A stretch of DNA of 64,000 bases from Bacteroidota bacterium. GTDB lineage: Bacteria; Bacteroidota; Bacteroidia; Chitinophagales; Chitinophagaceae. The stretch covers positions 1-64,000 of the forward strand of contig JAIUNW010000009.1 in assembly GCA_020161535.1 (NCBI GenBank), read 5' to 3'. The notes beneath the pieces are model-generated. The model was not told the DNA's origin. It did no database searches and saw nothing but the letters and a program-made list of their open reading frames with translations. A program made the translations under genes and the position numbers. How positions within the stretch are numbered: position 1 is the first letter of the stretch; each line of letters begins with the position of its first letter. This document shows, piece after piece, positions 20,007 to 56,497 of this stretch.

Positions 20007-21440
20007 TCAATTCACTTTCACTTCGCTGGTATCACCGGGCAACATAGGCAGGCGGTAGCCGCCACTGTCGATCTTCACGGCCGGCCATTGTTCTTGCAAC
20101 ACACGCATATCGGCGCCAGCCAGACCCGTTTGGTACAAATACAATTGTTGCAAGGCTTTGAGCGATTGCAGGTTCTTCACGCCCGCAGCAGTGACAGGAT
20201 TACCCGTCAGGTTCAACGATTGTAGTTTGCTGAAAGCGCCCAGCTTTTGCAGCAGGGCATCAGTCAGTTTACAATAAGGCAACTCAAGCCTTTGTATATC
20301 GGTACAAGCCGACAGTATATCCATCCCTTTCGGCGTGAGTGGATAATGATCAAGCCGCAGGTTCAATACCTGTTTGGCGACCGGTGCCAGTAAGGCCAGG
20401 GTAACTTCGTTTTTTTCAAATGCACCCACAAAACTCAACGTTAACCAATTACTGCCCTGGGCCACCGGAATAGCGGTTACGCCTGCCCGTTGCAGGGCAT
20501 TCAACGCAGCTGTATCGGCGGCCGGTGGTTCGGGCGATGGCAGGTTGCTATTGCTGCCCGCCTCTGCATCGGTAGCGCCCGTGGCGAGTCGCACCAGCAA
20601 AGCCTTGACTTCCGCCGTTTGCTGCAGGTGCCCGATGCGCGCGGTATCAGATCCGCCGGTGGCTACCCACCAATGCAAGATTTTTATTTCGTCGGCCGTC
20701 AGTTGCGTCTTTTCGCGCGGCGGCATATGGTCTTTGTTGTCGATCGGCAATTGTATGCGACCCACCAGGCCGCTTTCTTCCGGTTTGCCCGGCGCCAATG
20801 CCACGCCATCTTCACCACCTTTTAACATATATCGAATATCGTCGAGTCGCAGTTTGCCTTTCTGCTTGTTTTCACCATGACAACTGTAACAACGCGCTTC
20901 CAAAATCGGTTGTACAAGACCGTTATAGAGTACGGCCGTATCGGGGTTCTCCAGTTTTGCGATCACCGGTCCCTTGCCGGCACCGGCCTGCAGCGCTTCC
21001 TGCAGGTAATCCTCGCCATGGGTAAGCGATCCACCCATATGCCCGGTAACGGTGACCAGCGCCAATACAGCGGCTGAAACCCCGCGCCGCCAATATTTCG
21101 GCTGGGAGGATGCGTCGCTGACAACGCTCGCCGGCTGCCGCCGCACCAGCCACCACAAAATGCCCGAGGCAACAGCCGTAGCAATGCCCATCCAACGATG
21201 CTGGTCCACCAGGTCGCCTTCGTAATCGCCACTGGCGGCCAATAACCAGCCACTACTGCAACTGAACAGCGCCGACAACATTCCCCAGAACAACATGATT
21301 TGTATGGCAGGCTTCAACTGCGCATACTTATCACCGTTAGTGAGCCATATAAAGCCTGCAGCCAGCACCAGGATGCCCACGGGAAAATGCACCAGTATCG
21401 GATGGAAGCGCGCAAAGAGATCAGCAATAGTCAGCAACAT
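20007..21440 (-). CDS. DUF2231 membrane / PSCyt1 cytochrome / leucine-rich protein
   Basis: The 477-residue protein has three parts. Residues 1-135 hold four hydrophobic helices beginning FHPILVHFPVGILVLAAGF (DUF2231-like). A planctomycete-type cytochrome c domain follows with one heme site, CYSCH at 184-188, and HMPPREKTQLTADEIKILHWWV, where the Met may be the distal ligand. Residues 330-450 contain leucine-rich repeats such as LQSLNLTGNPVTAAGVKNL. It is the last gene of the five-gene cytochrome operon, three bases after the TIM-barrel gene. It probably passes electrons at the inner membrane. The role of the LRR part is unknown. Confidence 0.85.
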   Translation of the reverse strand: MLLTIADLFARFHPILVHFPVGILVLAAGFIWLTNGDKYAQLKPAIQIMLFWGMLSALFSCSSGWLLAASGDYEGDLVDQHRWMGIATAVASGILWWLVRRQPASVVSDASSQPKYWRRGVSAAVLALVTVTGHMGGSLTHGEDYLQEALQAGAGKGPVIAKLENPDTAVLYNGLVQPILEARCYSCHGENKQKGKLRLDDIRYMLKGGEDGVALAPGKPEESGLVGRIQLPIDNKDHMPPREKTQLTADEIKILHWWVATGGSDTARIGHLQQTAEVKALLVRLATGATDAEAGSNSNLPSPEPPAADTAALNALQRAGVTAIPVAQGSNWLTLSFVGAFEKNEVTLALLAPVAKQVLNLRLDHYPLTPKGMDILSACTDIQRLELPYCKLTDALLQKLGAFSKLQSLNLTGNPVTAAGVKNLQSLKALQQLYLYQTGLAGADMRVLQEQWPAVKIDSGGYRLPMLPGDTSEVKVN

Positions 21441-21443
21441 GGA

Positions 21444-22400
21444 TCAGGAATATCTTTTTCGGAGTAATTGCATCATATACACATTCACTGCCCACTGGTC
21501 GGCCAGGGGCTTGCGGGTATAGGGTTCGGTGGGCATATAGTCCGGCGGACCAAACTCAGTGAGTATCGTGGTTGTTTTGCCGTTTGCTTTTTGGCGCTTG
21601 ATGACTTCGTCCCACCAGCCCAGGTGCTGTGCTACGATCTTCTCCCATTCGGGCGCCCGCGGATCATTCACTTGCGGCCCTTCGGGATGACCCACACGGG
21701 CATGTATATGCGCCGTTCTTTGCAGGGCAAGCTGCACGGTATCGGCCTGATCGGTCAACATGCTTTCATGCACATTGCACCAATGCGAAATATCAAGGGT
21801 GAGTTTCAACTCTTGAAATCTTTCCATATAACGGCGAGCCACATGCGCAGCAAACAGGATGCGGCTGCGATGGGTTTCATGGTAAATGGGCACGCCGCTG
21901 GCTTTTGTTTTCTCGATGGTGAACCGGATGAATTCGCTGTTTGCTTCCTCGCTGAACCAATCGCGCCCCGAATGACAATTAATATACAAGGGCTTCAACT
22001 GCGGGTGACCGGTAGCTGCATCCACTGCTTTTTTGAATGTCGCCAGGTGCTGCGTGGGGTCGGCTTCATATCCCCCGCATAAAAAACCCACTTTCAAGCC
22101 GGTTGTTTGCAGCGCTTTCAGCAACAGGTCCTGGTCTTTCTTTTCATTCGGCCACCATAACTCAATGCCATCATAACCGGCCTTTGCGGCGGCTTCACAA
22201 AATTGCAAGCTGTTGCCATCAAAGCCCCAGTTGGTGGCCAATAGCAATACCGACTTGTCGGCGGCCGCTTCTTTGTGGCCAACAGTCCGGCTGTCGTCAA
22301 CTGCCCGCGTTTTATGGTCACCTGCCAGCAGGTTCATTTCACCGAGCGCCAGCAGGGCACCGGTTAATCCGCCCGCTTTTATAAATGCTTTCCTGTTCAT
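21444..22400 (-). CDS. Exported sugar isomerase/epimerase-like TIM barrel
   Basis: The 318-residue protein has an N-terminal export signal (MNRKAFIKAGGLTGALLALGEM) without a proper twin arginine, then a xylose-isomerase-like TIM barrel. Likely metal ligands are in GYDGIELWWPNE (Glu), IYHETHRSR, LTLDISHWCNVHE and TILTEFGPPDYMP. Relatives isomerise or epimerise sugars or 3-keto-sugars. It lies in the cytochrome operon, and a homologous Tat-exported barrel is encoded at 33.0 kb. Substrate is unknown. Confidence 0.85.
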   Translation of the reverse strand: MNRKAFIKAGGLTGALLALGEMNLLAGDHKTRAVDDSRTVGHKEAAADKSVLLLATNWGFDGNSLQFCEAAAKAGYDGIELWWPNEKKDQDLLLKALQTTGLKVGFLCGGYEADPTQHLATFKKAVDAATGHPQLKPLYINCHSGRDWFSEEANSEFIRFTIEKTKASGVPIYHETHRSRILFAAHVARRYMERFQELKLTLDISHWCNVHESMLTDQADTVQLALQRTAHIHARVGHPEGPQVNDPRAPEWEKIVAQHLGWWDEVIKRQKANGKTTTILTEFGPPDYMPTEPYTRKPLADQWAVNVYMMQLLRKRYS

Positions 22401-22412
22401 CGTTCTTTTTTA

Positions 22413-22437
22413 ACCCGTCGGGTACTACCCGTCGGGT
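22413..22437. repeat. Palindromic repeat, tandem direct copy
   Basis: Two copies of ACCCGTCGGGT (22413-22423 and 22427-22437) in the same orientation are separated by ACT, in the 55-base gap between two genes of one operon. Each unit is itself a near palindrome (ACCCG-T-CGGGT). It belongs to the family seen at 28.9, 30.1 and 56.5 kb. Confidence 0.85.
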
Positions 22438-22455
22438 GAAACCTTAAACCTACTC

Positions 22456-23970
22456 TTATGCAATGATCTCCCGAATCACCCGCCCGCTCACATCCGTTAA
22501 CCGGAAGGGTCTGCCCTGGAAGGGATAGGTGAAGGCCTCATGGTCAAAACCCATCTGGTTCAAAATCGTTGCCTGGATATCAAATGCTTCCACGCGGCCA
22601 CTCACCCCATAATAACCAATCTCATCGGTTTCACCATAGGTGTACCCTTTCTTCACGCCACCGCCCGCCATCCAAATGGTAAAGGCTTCGGTATGGTGAT
22701 CGCGGCCCTTGAATGGATTCACCGCACCATTGCGATTTTCCATCATGGGCGTGCGGCCAAACTCACCACCCCATACCACCAGGGTCTCGTCGAGCAAACC
22801 ACGCTGTTTCAAATCCAGCAACAAGGCGGTTACACATTTATCCATCGACCGATATTTATTGATCATACCGATGTTCAGCGAATTACCGGCATGGTCACCG
22901 TGCGCGTCCCAGCCCCAGTCGAACAACTGTACATACCGCACGCCTTTCTCCACCAGCTTGCGGGCTAGCAACACATTGTTCGCCAGGCAGCTCTTGCCCG
23001 GCTTCGTGCCATACATCTCATGAATATAATCGGGCTCGTCATTAATGTCCATCACTTCCGGCGCCGCGATCTGCATGCGATAGGCCATTTCGTATTGCGA
23101 AATGCGCGACAATATTTCGGGATCCTTATAATCGTCGTAGCTCTGCTGGTTGGCTTTGTTGATGGCGTCGATGCTCGCTTTGCGCAGATCGCGGCTCATG
23201 CCATTGGGGTCTTTGATAAAGAGTACCGGATCGCCTTCACTGCGGCATTGCACGCCCTGGTACACCGAAGGCAAAAAGCCGCTGCCCCAAACCGATTTGC
23301 CTGCATCGGGAAAATTGCCACCACTGGTCAGCACCACAAACCCGGGAAGGTTTTGGTTTTCGGTACCGAGGCCGTAGGTGATCCAGCTACCCATGCTTGG
23401 CCGACCCAATCGGGCGCTGCCGGTATGTACCAGTAACTGCGCCGGCGCGTGGTTGAACTGATCGGTCTTTACCGCTTTCAGAAAACTGATCTCATCTACC
23501 ACCGTGCTAAGGTGCGGCAGGTGTTCGCTGATCCAGGTTCGGCTTTCACCGTGTTGCGCAAATTTGGCTTGCGGACCTAACATCTTGGGAACACCCCGGA
23601 TAAAGGCGAATTGTTTGCCGGCAAGCAGGCTCGGCGGACAATCCTGCCCGTCCATCTTTGCGAGTTCTGGTTTATAATCGAACAACTCCAGCGGCGATGG
23701 TGCGCCAGCCATATGCAAATAAATCACCGATCGCGCCTTGCCCAAAAACGGCGGCGCCTTTGGTAACAATGGCCGCGCCGGATCAAAAGCAATCAGGCCG
23801 CTGTCGGCACGTCGCGAACCTGCACCACAGCCACCCAACAAACTACCCATCGCCAATGCACCCAGCCCCATAGCCGATTCTTTCAAAAAATGCCTGCGCG
23901 ACTGCACCTGAAGCTGCGCCAAACGCGCTTCTTCGGCAAGGCGTTGGTTGATAAAATCTTGCGTTGTCAT
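22456..23970 (-). CDS. DUF1501 exported protein
   Basis: The 504-residue protein has a twin-arginine signal, RRHFLKESAMGLGAL (residues 25-39), with LLGGC ending at Cys48 that could make it a lipoprotein. The body matches the DUF1501 family, which has an alkaline-phosphatase/sulfatase-like fold, with VIYLHMAGAPSPLELFDYKP, YVQLFDWGWDAHGDHAGN, VVWGGEFGRTP and GRDHHTEAFTIWMAGGGV. DUF1501 genes almost always pair with a PSD1-type cytochrome gene, as here with the gene 37 bases upstream. The reaction is not established. Confidence 0.92.
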   Translation of the reverse strand: MTTQDFINQRLAEEARLAQLQVQSRRHFLKESAMGLGALAMGSLLGGCGAGSRRADSGLIAFDPARPLLPKAPPFLGKARSVIYLHMAGAPSPLELFDYKPELAKMDGQDCPPSLLAGKQFAFIRGVPKMLGPQAKFAQHGESRTWISEHLPHLSTVVDEISFLKAVKTDQFNHAPAQLLVHTGSARLGRPSMGSWITYGLGTENQNLPGFVVLTSGGNFPDAGKSVWGSGFLPSVYQGVQCRSEGDPVLFIKDPNGMSRDLRKASIDAINKANQQSYDDYKDPEILSRISQYEMAYRMQIAAPEVMDINDEPDYIHEMYGTKPGKSCLANNVLLARKLVEKGVRYVQLFDWGWDAHGDHAGNSLNIGMINKYRSMDKCVTALLLDLKQRGLLDETLVVWGGEFGRTPMMENRNGAVNPFKGRDHHTEAFTIWMAGGGVKKGYTYGETDEIGYYGVSGRVEAFDIQATILNQMGFDHEAFTYPFQGRPFRLTDVSGRVIREIIA

Positions 23971-24007
23971 GAAAATATTATCTGGTTAAGGCCTACGACG
24001 GTCAGCT

Positions 24008-26764
24008 TTATTTTGTTATCACTTCGTCTAAATTCATCATTGCATTTGCAACCACGGTCAGCGCGGCCAATTCGGGATTGGCGTTGTTATTGGCGGGCAG
24101 AAAAGCAATGGCTTTATCCGGATGTGATTTGAATTCGGTTAGGGATTGCCGGTAGAGATCTGTAAACACCTGCAAGGTTTTCGGCGCGATTGTTTTGTAA
24201 AGCAACAATTCGTACCCGCGACTGATTTGCTTTGCCGGATCACTACCTGCTTCGGTTGTCATCCGTTGCGCAAAATGACGCGACATATCGATAAAGGCCG
24301 AATCGTTTAATGTAGTGAGGGCCTGTAAGGGCGTATTGGTGCGGATGCGCCGCGCACTGCAAACATTTCGTTGCGCCGCATCAAAACCGATACTGCTTGG
24401 GTAAGGCGATGATCTCTTCCAATAGGTGTACACCGCGCGACGGTATTGGTCTTCGCCCTGGCTCTGGTGCCAGCGGGCACCGTTATAAGGCGATAACCAA
24501 ATACCATCCGGTTGATACGGCATTACACCCGGACCATACATTTTATAACTGATGAGTCCGCTAGCAGCCAATGCCTGGTCGCGAATTTGTTCGGCGCTTA
24601 ATCGCACCCTTGGGCCGCGTGCATACAATTTGTTGGCGGCATCTTCGGCGGCTTTGTCGTTCCAGCGCGCATCTTGCCTGTAGGTGGCACTCATCACCAT
24701 TTCCTTCAGCAATTGTTTCATGTTCCATTTATAATCGTTCATGAAACGATAGCTGAGTTGATCGAGCAGGGCCTGGTGTGTAGGACTGACACCCTGTGTA
24801 CCCATGTCTTCGAGGGTTTCCACTATGCCGGTGCCAAAGAGTTGCTCCCAGAAACGATTCACCAGGGTACGACTCAGCAGCGGATTTCTTTTATCAGTTA
24901 ACCACTGGGCAAGTCCGAGGCGATTGGCGGGTGCATTGGCCGGTTGCGCAAACCGTAACACGGCAGGTACCGCCGGCGTTACATCCTTTCCTTTCAAGTG
25001 CCGGTTGCCTCGCTCCCATACATAGGTGCTGTGTTGCCAGGCAGCAGGGTTTTCCTGCATGATGGGAATACCGCTTGTATTGGTGTTTACTAACAGTCTT
25101 GTATAGTCGCTTTTAGCCTGCTGATAACCCGGTGCATTTTTGCCCGGTAGCGAAGGTTGAAAACTGAAAAAGTCAAAAAAGACCAGCAGGGGTGGATTTT
25201 TGCCAGGTTCCGGTTTAAAAGCCGATGATTTGAAATGCATGAAAACATCGTGTATACCTGACTGTTGGGGGAAGTTAAACAGTTGGCGTTTCCACTTATC
25301 TTCTTTGGCTACCGGCACGCGTGCGAAAACCGGACCGTTCATGGAATCGAGGTGCAGGTCGATCACTGCGCCCGATTGATAACAAACCACCTGCATCATG
25401 CCTTCGTCGGCTTTTTCCAAATTCGCTTTGGGTAAGCGCGCCCAACCATCGTTGAACATCGCCAGGTTGCCATTGTTGTTGATGATGGTTGCGTTTTTCA
25501 AACTATCTGCCCGGAAGCTATTGATCGCCGGCTGAAAAGTTTGCACCAAGGTTTTCACGCGTTTGGCTTCGGTTGTGCCTGCCTGTTGTTGCACCCACTG
25601 CGTGAGCATGGTCAGGCTATTTCTATCACTGTCGCTAAATTGCCGCAAATAGGGTGCTTCTGAAGAAACATCTTCATCACGGTTATTATCGAAATAAGCC
25701 AGGAACTGGTAGTATTCGTCGTGCCGGAACGGGTCGTACGGATGGCTATGGCATTGCACGCAGGCAAATGTGGAACTCAGTAATCCTTCCCAGGTTGTAT
25801 TCACGCGATCGAGGTTACCCGAATTGCGAAACTCTTCATTATCGGTACCACCTTCGTCGTTATTCGGTGCATTGCGATGAAAGGTAGTGGCTATTAGTTG
25901 TGCATCTGTTGGATCAGGCAACAGATCGCCCGCAATTTGTTCATTGATGAATTGATCATAGGGCATGTTGTTGTTGAAAGCCCTGATCACCCAGTCGCGA
26001 TAAGCCCATACATTTCGACCCTGGTCTGATTCATATCCCTTGGTGTCGGCATAACGCGCAAGGTCCAGCCACATACTGGTCCACTTTTCACCGAATCGTT
26101 CCGACGCCAATAAACTATCCACGAGTTGTTCGTATGCGTTGGGGTCTTTGCTTTCGAGAAAATGTTTGCTCTGTTCATTGGTCGGATAGGTGCCAATGAG
26201 GTCGAGGCTGACCCTTCTCAACAGGGTTGCTTTGTCAGCTTCTTTATTGGGTTGCAGGTTGTTCGCGGCAAGTTTCTCACCAATAAAGGCGTCGATTTCA
26301 TTGACGCCCCATGGGCCGTTTTTATCGGGACTTTCAACATTTACTTTCGGTATGGTTTGTTGTTTCACCGGCAGGTAAGCCCAGTGATCGCCCCATTTTG
26401 CACCCTGTTTTACCCAACGTTTCAGCAGTGCGATCTCTTCTGCAGGCAGCGGTTCGTGTTTGTAGGGCATGCGCTGCTCGGGGTCTTTGACAGTTAATCT
26501 TCTGATGAATTCACTGTGATCGGGATCGCCGGGAATGATGGCCGGTTTACCTGATTCGGTATTGGCCAAAGCCTCTTCCCTGAACAGCAAACTGAAACCG
26601 CCTTTGGCGCGAACGCCACCATGACAGGATAAACAGTTTTTATTGAGGATGGGTTTGACCTCGGCGCTAAAATCGACCGCGTCGTCTTTGGAGAAAAAGG
26701 CAAACGACCCTGCAATGGCCGCCACCCCTGCTACCACTAACCAGGCTTTTTTATTGGCAAACAT
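24008..26764 (-). CDS. PSCyt1-DUF1549-DUF1553 (PSD1) di-heme protein
   Basis: The 918-residue protein begins with one hydrophobic export segment (residues 8-25), then the PSCyt1 cytochrome domain with CLSCH at 44-48, the DUF1549 domain with a second heme site CVQCH at about 335-339 in the family motif CHSHPYDPF, and a C-terminal DUF1553 domain (NPLLSRTLVNRFWEQLFG, RRAVYTYWKR). I start at ATG 26764; an upstream TTG would add three residues. It should act in the periplasm in electron transfer, with the DUF1501 partner. Such pairs are abundant in Planctomycetes and occur in Bacteroidota. Substrate is unknown. Confidence 0.93.
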   Translation of the reverse strand: MFANKKAWLVVAGVAAIAGSFAFFSKDDAVDFSAEVKPILNKNCLSCHGGVRAKGGFSLLFREEALANTESGKPAIIPGDPDHSEFIRRLTVKDPEQRMPYKHEPLPAEEIALLKRWVKQGAKWGDHWAYLPVKQQTIPKVNVESPDKNGPWGVNEIDAFIGEKLAANNLQPNKEADKATLLRRVSLDLIGTYPTNEQSKHFLESKDPNAYEQLVDSLLASERFGEKWTSMWLDLARYADTKGYESDQGRNVWAYRDWVIRAFNNNMPYDQFINEQIAGDLLPDPTDAQLIATTFHRNAPNNDEGGTDNEEFRNSGNLDRVNTTWEGLLSSTFACVQCHSHPYDPFRHDEYYQFLAYFDNNRDEDVSSEAPYLRQFSDSDRNSLTMLTQWVQQQAGTTEAKRVKTLVQTFQPAINSFRADSLKNATIINNNGNLAMFNDGWARLPKANLEKADEGMMQVVCYQSGAVIDLHLDSMNGPVFARVPVAKEDKWKRQLFNFPQQSGIHDVFMHFKSSAFKPEPGKNPPLLVFFDFFSFQPSLPGKNAPGYQQAKSDYTRLLVNTNTSGIPIMQENPAAWQHSTYVWERGNRHLKGKDVTPAVPAVLRFAQPANAPANRLGLAQWLTDKRNPLLSRTLVNRFWEQLFGTGIVETLEDMGTQGVSPTHQALLDQLSYRFMNDYKWNMKQLLKEMVMSATYRQDARWNDKAAEDAANKLYARGPRVRLSAEQIRDQALAASGLISYKMYGPGVMPYQPDGIWLSPYNGARWHQSQGEDQYRRAVYTYWKRSSPYPSSIGFDAAQRNVCSARRIRTNTPLQALTTLNDSAFIDMSRHFAQRMTTEAGSDPAKQISRGYELLLYKTIAPKTLQVFTDLYRQSLTEFKSHPDKAIAFLPANNNANPELAALTVVANAMMNLDEVITK

Positions 26765-26785
26765 CGTTTTCAAGATAATTCATTT

Positions 26786-28885
26786 TTAGGACACCACCCA
26801 CCAGGCATAGCCATTGGCGGGAATTTCGACCTCCACTACAACTCGGCCATGGCAATCGGGCGTAAGCATTACCGGCGCCTCGCCCGATTTTGCAAAACGA
26901 ACCTTTTTCAGGTTGGTACCATCCAGCGGCAGGCTGATCTTTCTTTTGATCGGCTGCGGCAGCGGATTAAACAACAACAGCAGGCCACGCTCCCGACCCG
27001 AGGGCGACACATGCAGCCAGCCATCCCAGTCGCGGCCATCGGCCCGACGCAGGTGAACCATCGGCGCGTTGAGGATTTCGCGGTACTTTTTATACCAATT
27101 GATGACCTTGATCACCATATTGCGCGTACTAACGGTGTCGTATAAGCGCGGACCGCGATAACAGGCCTGCACCCCCGCACCATAATATTGTACCATCAGG
27201 TTTTCGTAATCACTGAGGTGTTGAGAGAGGGGTTCGAGAATTGCTTCCGGTCCGCCGCCCTGGTATCGTGTCAACGGTACAAAACCCCAACCCATCGACG
27301 GCGTTTTGTCAAAAGTTCCGTCGTGAATATTCTGCCGGTTGAGAATGCGTTGCTCTTCGCGCGGGAGCGAAAAATTCACTTCGCGATAACCGAGTGCGAT
27401 CTTATGCGTGCCATTCAAAAAATACCAATCGGGTGCATTGATGTACACACCGCGCTGGTTGAGCCATTGGTAAAGTTCCTGCTGGATCTTCATTTGCTCC
27501 CATTGCGAATCGTTGGCATCGTGGTGACCCGGATGCGTAACTGAAGCGCAAACATCACCGGGATAGGGGCCATCGTTTTCCCAGATATCAAAACCGGTGG
27601 CCATAAAAAACTGTTTGATTTTGTCGCGATAGGCCAGCCCCCATTTGCTGCCGAAACAAGGTGCGTTGCCAAAAAATGCATGGCCGGTTTTGCCCGTGAT
27701 TGGGCTGATCACATCATCTTCTTCGCTGATGCGTCGTGAACTGAACAAACTGTAACCGCCGATCTTAATGCCTTTGGCATGTGCGATCGAACTGATTTTT
27801 TTCCACCGCGCCAGGTTGGCTTCACTATTGTCTTCCATATTCAGGTGACTCCCAAAACTCAAGATCACGGCTTCATAACCGGTAGCCTTGCATTGATCGA
27901 TGGCGTTCAATACTTCTTCGTCATTCTTACTCACGAGGTGCATGAAGATCGGGTTTTCGGTTACCCACGGTGCAACGGTCTTGTACATACGCTGAATAGC
28001 CAGGCCTCTTTGTTCACGGTCGTAATTGTTCATGAGTAATTCAAAACTGCGAACCGATTCGAGCGTGCTGCCCGGGGCGATGCGAACATCTTTCACCATA
28101 TCGGGGTAAATTTCCACCCTGCAGGGCGTGGTGAGTGCATAGTTTACCTGCGAAGTATAGCTGCTGTCGGTAAGCCAGTGCAGGGTTTGGTCGCTCAGGT
28201 TATACCGCATCGCATTGTTGAAGGCATAATTGCTTTCGAAATAAATGCCGGCCTGTTTGGCCATTTTATCTACCGTGCCCACCACCGCGCTTTCTTCTTC
28301 CACGAGCGACAAAATTTCGTTTTTGATATAACCAGCATGCAGCGTGTCGCCCGTAGTATTGGTGATGGTGATCCACTTGGAAAGCAGTGGTTCCTGGTCG
28401 TACAAAGCATAATGCACATCGATCACCACACCGGGTAAGTCGGTGCTCTTAAAACGAAACCTGATTTGTTTACCGGTGGATGTTTTTATGGCGGCGGGAT
28501 GCCAGTTGGCGGGTTTCCAGGGTAACAAAGGCTGTAACGCCGAAGTATCAAATCCCTGGTAATGAAAGGCCTGGTCGTTGGGTTTGAGCTGCTGTAGCCA
28601 TTCAGGCAGAAAATACGCTTTCTGCTGCTGCCCCTGTAAACCGCCGATAACATACTGTTTGCCATTCAGCACTACCGAGGCTTCGGGTTCGATGGCCCGC
28701 AGCAATTGTTGGCCGGTAAGCAGGTTGCTGTAGTCGTAACAGGCGAGATCGGGACCGGTAACGAATTTCCGTTGCAGGTGACCGGTGGAAAAAGCAATGC
28801 CATTGCTCGTCACCGTTATCCGGGCGGGTTGCGCCTGAACAGCAAAACCCATTGCCAACAGGCCCCCTATTACCATCATTCGCAT
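26786..28885 (-). CDS. Putative secreted glycoside hydrolase, alpha-galactosidase-like
   Basis: The 699-residue protein has a signal peptide MRMMVIGGLLAMGFAVQAQ, an N-terminal beta-sandwich (about 20-300), a catalytic-barrel-like middle and a C-terminal beta domain, an architecture like GH36/clan GH-D enzymes. YKDKIKQFF-type helix followed by GFDIWENDGPYPGDVC is the probable nucleophile region, with the Asp in WEND as candidate. I cannot assign the family firmly. It is the first gene of the operon, 21 bases before the PSD1 gene, so the operon likely releases a sugar and then oxidises it. Confidence 0.65.
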   Translation of the reverse strand: MRMMVIGGLLAMGFAVQAQPARITVTSNGIAFSTGHLQRKFVTGPDLACYDYSNLLTGQQLLRAIEPEASVVLNGKQYVIGGLQGQQQKAYFLPEWLQQLKPNDQAFHYQGFDTSALQPLLPWKPANWHPAAIKTSTGKQIRFRFKSTDLPGVVIDVHYALYDQEPLLSKWITITNTTGDTLHAGYIKNEILSLVEEESAVVGTVDKMAKQAGIYFESNYAFNNAMRYNLSDQTLHWLTDSSYTSQVNYALTTPCRVEIYPDMVKDVRIAPGSTLESVRSFELLMNNYDREQRGLAIQRMYKTVAPWVTENPIFMHLVSKNDEEVLNAIDQCKATGYEAVILSFGSHLNMEDNSEANLARWKKISSIAHAKGIKIGGYSLFSSRRISEEDDVISPITGKTGHAFFGNAPCFGSKWGLAYRDKIKQFFMATGFDIWENDGPYPGDVCASVTHPGHHDANDSQWEQMKIQQELYQWLNQRGVYINAPDWYFLNGTHKIALGYREVNFSLPREEQRILNRQNIHDGTFDKTPSMGWGFVPLTRYQGGGPEAILEPLSQHLSDYENLMVQYYGAGVQACYRGPRLYDTVSTRNMVIKVINWYKKYREILNAPMVHLRRADGRDWDGWLHVSPSGRERGLLLLFNPLPQPIKRKISLPLDGTNLKKVRFAKSGEAPVMLTPDCHGRVVVEVEIPANGYAWWVVS

Positions 28886-28894
28886 AGTCGTGGT

Positions 28895-28929
28895 TTTTTA
28901 CCCGTCGGGTGGCACCCGACGGGTAAAAA
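28895..28929. repeat. Palindromic repeat, full inverted form
   Basis: Arms TTTTTACCCGTCGGGT (28895-28910) and ACCCGACGGGTAAAAA (28914-28929) are perfect 16-base complements around GGC. The element lies ten bases upstream of the glycoside hydrolase start and ahead of the divergent dgkA gene, so it cannot be an end-of-gene terminator for either. Confidence 0.92.
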
Positions 28930-30141: not shown

Positions 30142-30174
30142 ACCCGACGAGTGTACTGATTCCACCCGTCGGGT
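30142..30174. repeat. Palindromic repeat, degenerate inverted form
   Basis: ACCCGACGAGT (30142-30152, one change from the family unit) and ACCCGTCGGGT (30164-30174) lie between the convergent DUF1361 and FtsX-type genes with an 11-base spacer. Here the arms are in the opposite order to those at 28.9 and 56.5 kb. In this position the hairpin could end transcription from both sides. Confidence 0.75.
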
Positions 30175-30185
30175 GCCAGCACCCA

Positions 30186-32612
30186 TCATTCCGAGCGAAG
30201 CGCATTCACCGGGTTTGCATGGGCGGCACGCAGCGCATGAAAGCCGATGGTCAACAAGGCAATCACCAATGCCAGGAGACCAGACACGGCAAACATCCAC
30301 CATTTGATGTCAATACGATAAGCGAAATCATGCAGCCATTGCTGCATACCCCACCAGGCAATGGGCGACGCAATTACCATGGCCAACAAAATCAGGCGCA
30401 AAAAATCGGTCGACAACATGGCTACCACCCCCGCTACCGAAGCGCCCAACACTTTTCGGATGCCAATCTCTTTGGTGCGCTGAAAAGAACTGATGACGGC
30501 AAGTCCGAACAACCCCAGGCAACTGATCAATATCGCCACGCCGGTAGCCAGGTTGATCAATCGCGATAAGTTTCGTTCTGCCTTATACATTTCTGCCAGC
30601 GCCTCATCGTAAAACTCGTATTTGAAACTACCCGTCGGGTAAAATTCATTCCATTTTTTTTCGAGCCGCCCGATGGTTGCCTGCCACTGGGCGGGATCCT
30701 GTGCATTCAATTTGATGTTGAACGAAGAGAGGTTTTCTTTTTCGGTTTGCAACACCATGGGGTCGATGGTTTCATGAAAATCACGCAGGTGAAAATCACG
30801 CACCACACCCACAATCGGAAAGGATTGCGACGAAGGTTGACCGATCATTTTTCCCAAAGCCTCCTGCGGCGTTTTAAACCCAAGTGCTTTGTACGCCGTT
30901 TCGTTGATCACCAATTCCCGCACAGTATCGGAAGGCAATGCTTGCCGACCCGCTACCAGCGGAATTTGAAACAACCGCATATAATTGCTGTCGATGACTT
31001 TGCGAAACAACTGCAACTTTATCGGCTCAGCCGCATCGGCCGGTTTGTATTCGTACTGGCTCGACGAATAACCCGACTCCATCGGTTTATCACCGAGCGA
31101 AAGATCGCGCACACCGGTTTCGCGCCGCCATTCTTGCGCCAATGCAAATTGTTTTCCTTCGTATTGTTTGTTGAACAGGATTTTCCAGGGAATATCCACC
31201 AACAATACCGCTTCTTTGTTGAAGCCCATATCTTTTTTCGTGGTGTACCGCAACTGCATACCCATAATCAATGCACCGATAATAAATACTTGTGCGATCA
31301 CAAACTGAAACACGATCAGCGATTTTCTGAAAGTGAGTGACTGCGGATGTGCCGTTTTACTGGCATGCCCGCGCAAAATGCTAAGCGGTCGCACACGGGT
31401 AATCAACCACGACGGATACCAGCCGGCCAGCAATACCAACAACAACAGCAAACCCGCAAAAGCCGCCAGCACCGGCCAGGGAGACGAAAATTCCCTGACC
31501 CCCGCTGGTATAAGGTCACCGAGCGACCACATAATACCGCGCGATAAAACCAGGGCCAGCACAGCGGCCAATAAAACAGTAAACAAGGTTTCGCCAAACA
31601 CCAATCCGGCGAGGTGCTTCTTATCACTACCGAGCAACTTTCGCATGCCGATTTCCTTGCTTTGTTGCGGTACCCGGGCCGTACTCAGGTTAATATAATT
31701 GATACAGGCCAACAACAGTAAAAAAGCGCCGAGCGCGATGAGCCCATACAATACTTTCTTATTTGCCTTCCGGTTTTCGTATTCATTGATATATGTAGAG
31801 AAATGGGATTCCCGCAAGGGCATCAGGTGAAACCAGCGATTAAACTTATAATCAGGTCGCACTTCCGATTCAAACTGTTGCATTTTTTTCTCGGTGATGC
31901 TGCGAACCAGGTTCATTACCGCGGCGGTATCGGCGGTTGTTTCAACATACAATTGATCGGATCCGTTGGTATTGCTCCATCGTGCAATCGGGTAGGCTTC
32001 TTTCTTCAACACGGTAAATGCTTTCGCATCAAATTCAGTGGGATAATCCAGGTCTGCCACTACCCCCGTCACCACCCGACGAACGGTATCATTTTGAAAC
32101 AAGCTGCGCCCCAATAATTGATCGGCAGCAATATTGCCGAAATAAGTTTTCGCGGCAGATGCCGTGAGCACCAGGTTCTCCGGTGCCTTCAATGCCGTTA
32201 CCGGATTGCCCGCCAACCATTGGTAATGTATCAGGTCGAAATAAGCACTATCGGTCTGCACCGTTTTGACTGGCTCCTCAAAAACGGTGCTGCCCACTTT
32301 AACCGTGCGTACATCGCCCCTGAACACCGGCACTACTTTTTGCAATTGCGGCACCTGGTCGCGCAGGGCCTGGTACATCGGCTTGGACACGCCGCCATTC
32401 CAGGATTCTTTGTTATCGAAAACAAACCCCGACACCAAACGATACACCTGGTCGCGGTTTTCCAGTTTGTTTTCATAGCTGAATTCAAAACCGACCATCT
32501 GGCAAATCACCCAGCAGGCGCTGATGCCGATGGCGAGGCCGAACACATTTAAAAAACTGAAAAGGGGCGCGCGGCGCAGCCGGCGGATGATGGTTTTGAT
32601 GGTGGATCGCAT
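30186..32612 (-). CDS. FtsX/MacB-type ABC permease (orphan, 800-residue class)
   Basis: The 808-residue protein has two FtsX units: a helix near residue 20, a periplasmic domain, three helices in IALGAFLLLLACINYINLSTAR onward, and the same pattern repeated at the C-terminus (ISCLGLFGLAVISSFQRTKEIGIRKVLGAS). The motif ARVPQQSKEIGMRKLLGSDKK links the two halves to the ATPase. No ATPase gene is adjacent, which is usual for this class in Bacteroidota. It probably exports a small peptide or drug. I start at ATG 32612 rather than TTG 32618. Confidence 0.88.
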   Translation of the reverse strand: MRSTIKTIIRRLRRAPLFSFLNVFGLAIGISACWVICQMVGFEFSYENKLENRDQVYRLVSGFVFDNKESWNGGVSKPMYQALRDQVPQLQKVVPVFRGDVRTVKVGSTVFEEPVKTVQTDSAYFDLIHYQWLAGNPVTALKAPENLVLTASAAKTYFGNIAADQLLGRSLFQNDTVRRVVTGVVADLDYPTEFDAKAFTVLKKEAYPIARWSNTNGSDQLYVETTADTAAVMNLVRSITEKKMQQFESEVRPDYKFNRWFHLMPLRESHFSTYINEYENRKANKKVLYGLIALGAFLLLLACINYINLSTARVPQQSKEIGMRKLLGSDKKHLAGLVFGETLFTVLLAAVLALVLSRGIMWSLGDLIPAGVREFSSPWPVLAAFAGLLLLLVLLAGWYPSWLITRVRPLSILRGHASKTAHPQSLTFRKSLIVFQFVIAQVFIIGALIMGMQLRYTTKKDMGFNKEAVLLVDIPWKILFNKQYEGKQFALAQEWRRETGVRDLSLGDKPMESGYSSSQYEYKPADAAEPIKLQLFRKVIDSNYMRLFQIPLVAGRQALPSDTVRELVINETAYKALGFKTPQEALGKMIGQPSSQSFPIVGVVRDFHLRDFHETIDPMVLQTEKENLSSFNIKLNAQDPAQWQATIGRLEKKWNEFYPTGSFKYEFYDEALAEMYKAERNLSRLINLATGVAILISCLGLFGLAVISSFQRTKEIGIRKVLGASVAGVVAMLSTDFLRLILLAMVIASPIAWWGMQQWLHDFAYRIDIKWWMFAVSGLLALVIALLTIGFHALRAAHANPVNALRSE
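30630..30640. repeat. Single repeat unit inside the permease gene
   Basis: One copy of ACCCGTCGGGT is read in frame as Tyr-Pro-Thr-Gly in the second periplasmic domain. On the coding strand it is preceded by TTTT, as in the intergenic copies. Confidence 0.7.
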
Positions 32613-33029: not shown

Positions 33030-33965
33030 ATGAAAAGAAGAATCTTTCTCCGCAATAGTTTGCTCAGCGCCGGAGCGCTGGCCATCGACCCCCTGTCTTT
33101 CTCCTCTGCCGCGCCGAAATTGAAAATTTCGCTGGCAGAATGGTCCTTGCACCGGGCGCTGCAAGCCAAACAACTGCATCACCTCGACTTTCCCATCACA
33201 GCCAAAAAAACCTATGGCATTGATGCCGTTGAATATGTTAGTGGCTTCTTTGGTCTAGACCGAAACATGACCCAGCAAGAAGCCGGCAAGAACACAGCTT
33301 ACCTGAAAGAGCTGTTGCAACGCAGCAAAGATGCCGGCGTTTACAACAACCTGATCATGGTTGACCAAGAAGGACCGCTGGCCATACCCGACGATACGAT
33401 AAGATTAAAAGCGGTGGAAGACCACAAAAAATGGGTAGACGCCGCCAGCCTGCTTGGCTGCACCATTGTCCGCGTCAACCTGCAGGGGGAGGGCGACCGC
33501 GCAGCGAAAAAAACAGCCGCTGTCGATTCCTTATCGCGACTCGGTGAATATGCCGGCACGCAACATATCAACGTCGTGGTCGAGAACCATGGTGGCGACT
33601 CCTCACGAGCCGATTGGCTGGTATCCATCATGCAACAGGTGGGCCGTAAAAACGTGGGCACCCTGCCTGATTTCGGCAATTTTTGTATTGGTCAGGCCTG
33701 GGGTAGCACGCAGGGAAATTGTCCGGAAGCCTACGACACCTATACAGGCGTGGCTGAACTGCTGCCCTTCGCCAAAGGCGTGAGTGCCAAAACCTACGAT
33801 TTCGATGCCAATGGCAACCAACCGAAGATGGACTACCAAAAACTCATTGGCCTGGTGAAAAAATCAGGTTTCAATGGCTATATCGGCATCGAATACGAAG
33901 GTGAAAACCAACCGGAAGACGAAGGCATCAAACGCACCAAGGCCTTGCTCAACAAGCTACTTTAA
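33030..33965 (+). CDS. Tat-exported sugar isomerase/epimerase-like TIM barrel
   Basis: The 311-residue protein begins with MKRRIFLRNSLLSAGALA, a twin-arginine-like signal, and continues as an AP-endonuclease-2/xylose-isomerase-type barrel. Glu in GIDAVEYVSGFF, VVENHGGDSSRADW, GTLPDFGNFCIG and YIGIEYEGENQPEDEGI are the usual metal-binding strands. It is probably a sugar or keto-sugar isomerase in the periplasm. It resembles the barrel in the cytochrome operon in class and export but not in close sequence. The stop is seven bases from that of the convergent alcohol dehydrogenase. Confidence 0.85.
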   Translation: MKRRIFLRNSLLSAGALAIDPLSFSSAAPKLKISLAEWSLHRALQAKQLHHLDFPITAKKTYGIDAVEYVSGFFGLDRNMTQQEAGKNTAYLKELLQRSKDAGVYNNLIMVDQEGPLAIPDDTIRLKAVEDHKKWVDAASLLGCTIVRVNLQGEGDRAAKKTAAVDSLSRLGEYAGTQHINVVVENHGGDSSRADWLVSIMQQVGRKNVGTLPDFGNFCIGQAWGSTQGNCPEAYDTYTGVAELLPFAKGVSAKTYDFDANGNQPKMDYQKLIGLVKKSGFNGYIGIEYEGENQPEDEGIKRTKALLNKLL

Positions 33966-56464: not shown

Positions 56465-56497
56465 TTTTACCCGTCGGGTGGCACCCGACGGGTAAAA
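56465..56497. repeat. Palindromic repeat, full inverted form between convergent genes
   Basis: Arms TTTTACCCGTCGGGT (56465-56479) and ACCCGACGGGTAAAA (56483-56497) flank GGC exactly as at 28.9 kb. The element fills the gap between the stops at 56459 and 56501 and, with A-tracts and T-tracts at both ends, would be a good bidirectional terminator. Confidence 0.92.

Follow-up and report, generated by a model that had tools for sequence, protein, structure and literature searches.

What do closely packed genes for exported cytochromes and carbohydrate-type proteins do together, and which of them form the functional unit? The question is raised by a locus in a Chitinophagaceae member of the Bacteroidota (assembly GCA_020161535.1, contig JAIUNW010000009.1; genome of 4.03 Mb), of which we analysed the first 64,000 nucleotides of the contig, called the window throughout. 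On the minus strand, between positions 20007 and 28885, five long open reading frames (ORFs) follow each other head-to-tail with intergenic gaps of 12, 37, 55 and 3 bp: a glycoside hydrolase (GH)-like gene (28885-26786), a gene for a PSD1-type diheme cytochrome (26773-24008), DUF1501 (23970-22456), an exported triosephosphate isomerase (TIM) barrel (22400-21444) and a membrane cytochrome with a leucine-rich repeat (LRR) tail (21440-20007). An earlier note had described them as a five-gene operon that might oxidise a released sugar outside the cytoplasm. The five packed same-strand genes were confirmed, as were the domain calls for PSD1, DUF1501, the TIM barrel and the DUF2231/heme/LRR protein (by Pfam, the LRR by profile comparison) and the three heme sites CLSCH, CVQCH and CYSCH, all invariant among relatives of PSD1 and the LRR cytochrome. 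The proposed extent did not hold up: the functional unit is smaller, a four-gene core of PSD1, DUF1501, TIM barrel and LRR cytochrome.

The survey took in the neighbourhoods of the GH-like gene and PSD1 in related genomes, plus 80 further loci with 10-kb flanks. Loci from Chitinophagaceae, Pedobacter, Cytophagales and Flavobacteriaceae share the gene order PSD1-DUF1501-TIM-LRR cytochrome, with PSD1 identities of about 40-60%; in some Dyadobacter loci TIM and LRR cytochrome are swapped. Of the 64 PSD1 loci with at least 5.5 kb of downstream sequence, 57 have DUF1501 downstream of PSD1, 46 the LRR cytochrome and 31 the TIM barrel. These are minimum values, since some of the runs are interrupted by spurious opposite-strand ORFs. 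All 31 loci with a TIM barrel also hold DUF1501 and the LRR cytochrome, so the whole set is present in 31/64, and the linkage of the TIM barrel to the cytochrome pair stands. Two loci of the survey are unusual in themselves: a contig labelled Beijerinckiaceae (L103) carries a Bacteroidota-type core with 54% PSD1 identity, reflecting either mis-binning or transfer, and in Niabella defluvii (L176) PSD1 and DUF1501 are fragmented.

The linkage that had been assumed for the GH-like gene as well was absent from most loci. This gene is present in 35 of 151 genomes, the source genome included, and lies beside the core in 6 of 33 loci, that of the window among them; for two of the 27 without an adjoining core the contig is too short to decide. 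Among the 80 loci of the wider set it was found in 2, one of which is a contig already counted (G077). A five-gene operon as a conserved unit was thus rejected, and the GH-like gene is a passenger, an occasional neighbour of the core.

The PSD1 protein (921 amino acids; 24008..26773, minus strand) consists of an anchor, a PSCyt1 domain with heme 1, a PSCyt2 domain with heme 2, an inserted carbohydrate-binding module (CBM) of the CBM6 type and a PSD1/DUF1553 domain. PSCyt1 (53.1 bits), PSCyt2 (273.3) and PSD1 (295.6) all match in one protein above the Pfam cut-offs. The predicted heme-c sites are CLSCH at residues 47-51 (26621..26635) and CVQCH at residues 338-342 (25748..25762), the latter followed by a conserved S-H-P-Y-D-P. 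Two CxxCH motifs occur in 82/82 PSD1 relatives and one in 29/29 LRR cytochromes, an invariance that argues against chance. An AlphaFold2 model built from 82 sequences (predicted local distance difference test, pLDDT, 90.8) shows an anchor helix at the N-terminus, heme regions made of helices and a beta-sandwich. It is from this model that window-type PSD1 is predicted to hold a CBM6-fold module, at residues of about 415-541 (25151..25531) between the PSCyt2 and PSD1 domains: compared with CBM6 domains, the sandwich scores Z 16-17 (112-122 residues, root-mean-square deviation about 2 A) and a Foldseek E of about 1e-6, in line with a sequence-profile match to the PDB (3e-4) and a sub-threshold Pfam match to CBM_6 (23.9 vs a cut-off of 28.9 bits). 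No comparable fold match was found for the helical body of roughly 790 residues in fold searches that the CBM6 module filled, and we therefore do not claim this body as a new fold.

DUF1501 (504 amino acids; 22456..23970, minus strand) carries a twin-arginine signal, RRHFLK in the window protein; the motif occurs in 65/73 DUF1501 sequences and is in keeping with export of a protein already folded or loaded with its cofactor. Its model (73 sequences, pLDDT 85) has the fold of nucleotide pyrophosphatases/phosphodiesterases (NPPs), the alkaline phosphatase PafA and sulfatases (Z about 20 over about 250 residues), and its C-terminal half aligns with sulfatases by profile (93.5%). The site, by contrast, is non-canonical. 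Where the C-terminal metal motif of sulfatases has Asp-His/Asn, DUF1501 has an invariant E403-F404 (73/73); A88 aligns, in a weak local match, with the strand-1 metal Asp of NPPs, and no Asp occurs in column 88 across the 73 sequences. In the global profile alignment the invariant H174 stands opposite the nucleophile Cys of the C-x-P-x-R type motif of sulfatases, the local match of this segment being weak, and from this alignment H174 probably holds the nucleophile position. H174, D355, H357, E403, R406 and H425 are the invariant site candidates.

The TIM barrel (318 amino acids; 21444..22400, minus strand) is an exported xylose-isomerase-like protein of the AP_endonuc_2 family (44.6 vs a Pfam cut-off of 31.1 bits), with no solved relative below E = 0.01. 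An R[RK]xF motif is present in 24/24 of these proteins, and E175, D203, H206, H231 and E282 are invariant in the 24 sequences; they are putative metal ligands, which we take to be the metal-holding residues expected in AP_endonuc_2 proteins. The window holds a further AP_endonuc_2 TIM barrel at 33030-33965, on the opposite strand and outside the operon.

The membrane cytochrome (477 amino acids; 20007..21440, minus strand) combines a DUF2231 four-helix domain, a PSCyt1 heme-c domain with CYSCH at residues 184-188 (20877..20891) and the LRR tail. PSCyt1 and DUF2231 score above the Pfam cut-off; the LRR match is sub-threshold in Pfam and clear in profile comparison with solved LRR proteins. There are four hydrophobic segments, with K/R-rich loops at 34-46 and 100-114, and from this charge the N-terminus, the loop at 66-84 and everything after residue 137 are predicted to lie on the outer face. 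The invariant H13, H18, H81, H134 and H141 would then be on the periplasmic side, as would the heme-c domain, which suggests a b-heme, metal or quinone site there.

How might four such proteins work together? All of them carry export or membrane signals, and with confidence that is evenly balanced we read the core as a redox module that is exported, directed at carbohydrates and coupled to the membrane by electron exchange. The CBM6 module of PSD1 would bind a glycan or oligosaccharide. In complex with DUF1501, PSD1 would perform a redox reaction on the sugar, using a metal and/or heme site, and the LRR cytochrome would pass electrons between PSD1 and the quinone pool. The oxidised sugar may be isomerised, epimerised or cleaved in the periplasm by the TIM barrel, presumably a metal-dependent enzyme. 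Where present, the GH-like enzyme would free the sugar or oligosaccharide. Oxidation of the sugar with electrons passing to the membrane is the most likely direction, since no O2-activating family turned up. GH29 or GH95 genes adjoining several Chitinophagaceae cores, and SusD-type genes in some of the operons, also speak for a carbohydrate link. The earlier idea is supported in part: the CBM6 module, the TIM metal-site residues and the membrane cytochrome agree with an exported, heme-containing gene set that has a link to carbohydrates and can exchange electrons, whereas the five-gene scope has to be given up.

Several observations weigh against this reading. The TIM barrel is missing from about half of the operons, and in some sister loci an NHL beta-propeller exported by the twin-arginine translocation (Tat) pathway takes its place, which shows that the core does not depend on the TIM step. 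The operon neighbours are otherwise heterogeneous and come from many unrelated families, Gfo/Idh genes making up 8 of 124 neighbours (Pfam; raw counts without a background set), and the genomic context therefore leaves the substrate unfixed. GH29 lies near the core in 8/38 loci of the Chitinophagaceae sample vs 3/80 of the wider set, and a general link between the core and GH29 fucosidases was not upheld as a rule. Pfam recognised no flavin, pyrroloquinoline quinone (PQQ) or molybdopterin domain in any core protein, nothing in the data shows which way the electrons flow, and text searches by domain names across 5.39 million open papers gave few hits, none of the papers listed assaying a PSD1/DUF1501 protein.

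Electrons might instead flow outwards, the LRR cytochrome taking them from quinol and PSD1/DUF1501 using them to activate O2 or H2O2 for an attack on the glycan in the manner of an oxygenase or peroxygenase. The anatomy, a CBM-bearing diheme protein next to a quinone-type domain in the membrane, is compatible with both directions, and the invariant His-rich residues of DUF1501 would suit such chemistry; with no Pfam or profile match to known diheme peroxidases or lytic polysaccharide monooxygenases (LPMOs), and no direct evidence of oxygen use, we regard it as unlikely. Nor do we find it probable that DUF1501 is an ordinary sulfatase or phosphodiesterase, the cytochromes being electron carriers or redox sensors that have no more than the operon in common with it. 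The fold and the profile alignment of the C-terminal half are what such a hydrolase would show, but position 88 lacks the Asp (in a weak alignment), E403-F404 replaces Asp-His/Asn and H174 probably sits at the nucleophile position; moreover, DUF1501 comes after PSD1 in 57/64 loci, which argues for a joint function. Least probable of all is that the five genes, GH-like protein included, form one dedicated glycan-oxidation operon: they share a strand with gaps of 3-55 bp and the GH-like gene adjoins the core in G010, G009, G041, G017 and G077 too, yet 27 of the 33 GH-like loci have no core alongside, the genomes G023, G032 and G044 hold the GH-like gene without any PSD1 match, and in G012 and G013 the core lies away from it, the GH-like gene staying in a syntenic block with HGSNAT and capsule-type genes.

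PSD1/DUF1501 could also be a glycoside 3-dehydrogenase whose 3-keto-glycosides are processed by the TIM barrel together with Gfo/Idh and PF06439 proteins. PMC9007349 links PF06439 (DUF1080) proteins to the hydrolysis of 3-ketoglycosides in the periplasm, and the genome holds nine such genes. A keto-sugar route had been raised as a possibility by the earlier note, and a sister locus in the same genome (L065, C12:437000-456500) speaks for it: downstream of PSD1, DUF1501, a propeller and an LRR cytochrome it carries a PF06439 3-keto-disaccharide hydrolase gene (158.5 bits) and Gfo/Idh; the propeller, a Tat-exported NHL/DUF5128 protein, replaces the TIM barrel there, and PSD1 is shorter (781 amino acids) and has no CBM_6 match. 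Six loci of the genus have a PF06439 gene no more than about 8 kb from DUF1501. The window locus itself, by contrast, carries neither PF06439 nor Gfo/Idh: the nearest PF06439 gene is 48 kb from the operon, window-type loci of the genus have none within 10 kb among the matches listed, and Gfo/Idh is a minority neighbour at 8/124. The genome has, besides, separate pairs of a GMC flavoprotein and a Gluconate_2-dh3 subunit at C8 220 kb and 226 kb and at C11 146-148 kb, the second C8 pair lying about 3 kb from a PF06439 gene (C8 226-230 kb); Pfam found neither of the two partners in the five window proteins, and these pairs are better candidate 3-dehydrogenases than the core. We accordingly give the 3-dehydrogenase role of PSD1/DUF1501 a small probability, similar to that of outward electron flow.

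Three observations touch on these keto-sugar genes. C8:220074-230499, with its two GMC and Gluconate_2-dh3 pairs near a PF06439 gene, is a candidate 3-keto-sugar locus of the LacABC type. The sister locus L065 additionally encodes a protein whose sequence resembles a beta-carbonic anhydrase and an exported TIM-barrel-like protein of 279 amino acids. At C13:76975-78666, about 13 kb past the end of the window, a PF06439 gene and a short divergent DUF1501-like gene (about 400 amino acids) lie on the opposite strand, and this pair is kept in most genomes of the genus.

A bolder form of the carbohydrate-redox reading, somewhat better placed in our view than the single alternatives above though still doubtful, is that DUF1501 is a redox metalloenzyme on an alkaline-phosphatase fold with a new His/Asp/Glu site, which together with the CBM6-bearing diheme PSD1 would form a periplasmic glycan oxidoreductase of a new class, with the DUF2231/heme-c/LRR protein as its connection to the membrane. 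If true, the same chemistry would account for the large PSD1/DUF1501 gene sets of Planctomycetes and Verrucomicrobia. The Bacteroidota operon supplies a membrane electron partner, a sugar-binding module and a set of DUF1501 residues, which makes the question testable by genetics and biochemistry, and the core is found in named culturable strains such as Pedobacter caeni, Chitinophaga polysaccharea and Dyadobacter species.

The GH-like protein itself (699 amino acids, exported; 26786..28885, minus strand), a facultative neighbour outside the core, may be a so far unclassified glycosidase for fucosylated glycans. Its label as glycoside hydrolase-like is upheld at the level of the family, in which 20 of 30 relatives match PF16875, the GH36 N-terminal domain (best E 1.9e-4), and not by the window protein itself, which alone has no Pfam match; a profile of the family matches the solved GH36 alpha-galactosidase 2xn0 with E = 6.7e-8. 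The rest of the protein is a probable TIM-barrel catalytic part, for which no match to GH36 or any other Pfam family was obtained. Its acidic candidates are E436, D438 and D444, of which D438 lies in an invariant E-N-D-G and is a candidate only. A GH29 alpha-L-fucosidase occurs within about 20 kb of the GH-like gene in 11/33 loci vs 1.0 expected (Poisson p about 1e-8, with loci taken as independent although the genomes are related). From this company, a role on fucose-containing glycans is a fair guess for the enzyme. In L034, L038, L039, L043, L047, L055, L056 and L061 the GH-like gene directly adjoins GH29 genes.

Two further features border on the operon. An HGSNAT/NagX-like acetyltransferase gene (PF07786; 18838-20001) is convergent with the operon end, and in several same-genus genomes this gene adjoins the LRR cytochrome inside a syntenic block. 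A repeat search found a double copy of ACCCGWCGGGT between the DUF1501 and TIM genes (22413..22437) and an inverted double copy just upstream of the GH-like start (28900..28924); further copies in the window are at 30142-30174, 30630-30640 and 56469-56493. The unit ACCCGWCGGGT-NNN-ACCCGWCGGGT is near-palindromic with a 14-bp period, direct or inverted and apparently intergenic, and occurs as 95 double copies in the genome, the reversed control pattern giving 0 copies. It looks like a genomic family of the repetitive extragenic palindromic (REP) or terminator-like type.

How does the core relate to known systems? The GH36 alpha-galactosidases (2xn0, 2yfn) resemble the GH-like protein in its N-terminal domain; for its catalytic part Pfam gave no match to GH36. 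A LacABC-type 3-dehydrogenase with a PF06439 hydrolase, as the relevant part of PMC9007349 describes for Caulobacter and Pedobacter, resembles what the window operon may do, periplasmic sugar oxidation at the membrane with downstream sugar enzymes; the window operon differs in having neither GMC nor Gluconate_2-dh3, and PF06439 is absent from its locus. With the alkaline phosphatase/NPP/sulfatase superfamily DUF1501 has the fold in common, whereas the Asp of the C-terminal metal motif is not conserved, that of strand 1 is probably missing as well, the nucleophile is probably replaced and an invariant His/Asp/Glu set stands in place of the usual site.

The closest systems are the planctomycete-type pairs of PSCyt2/PSD1 (DUF1549/DUF1553) and DUF1501 known from Rhodopirellula and freshwater Verrucomicrobia, which are abundant in planctomycete and verrucomicrobial genomes. 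In the sections of He 2017 (PMC5615132) that concern PSCyt proteins, CBMs, with CBM_6 among those named, and a conserved neighbour gene are described, with no known function, and a carbohydrate role is suggested. These pairs have in common with the window operon the PSCyt1-PSCyt2-PSD1 architecture, the adjacent gene and the CBM insert. To them the Bacteroidota form adds a recurrent third gene, for an AP_endonuc_2 TIM barrel or a beta-propeller, and a fourth, for the DUF2231/PSCyt1/LRR cytochrome. As a variant of the PSD1/DUF1501 pair, this four-gene form, with its membrane cytochrome and a TIM barrel or propeller as partner, is new.

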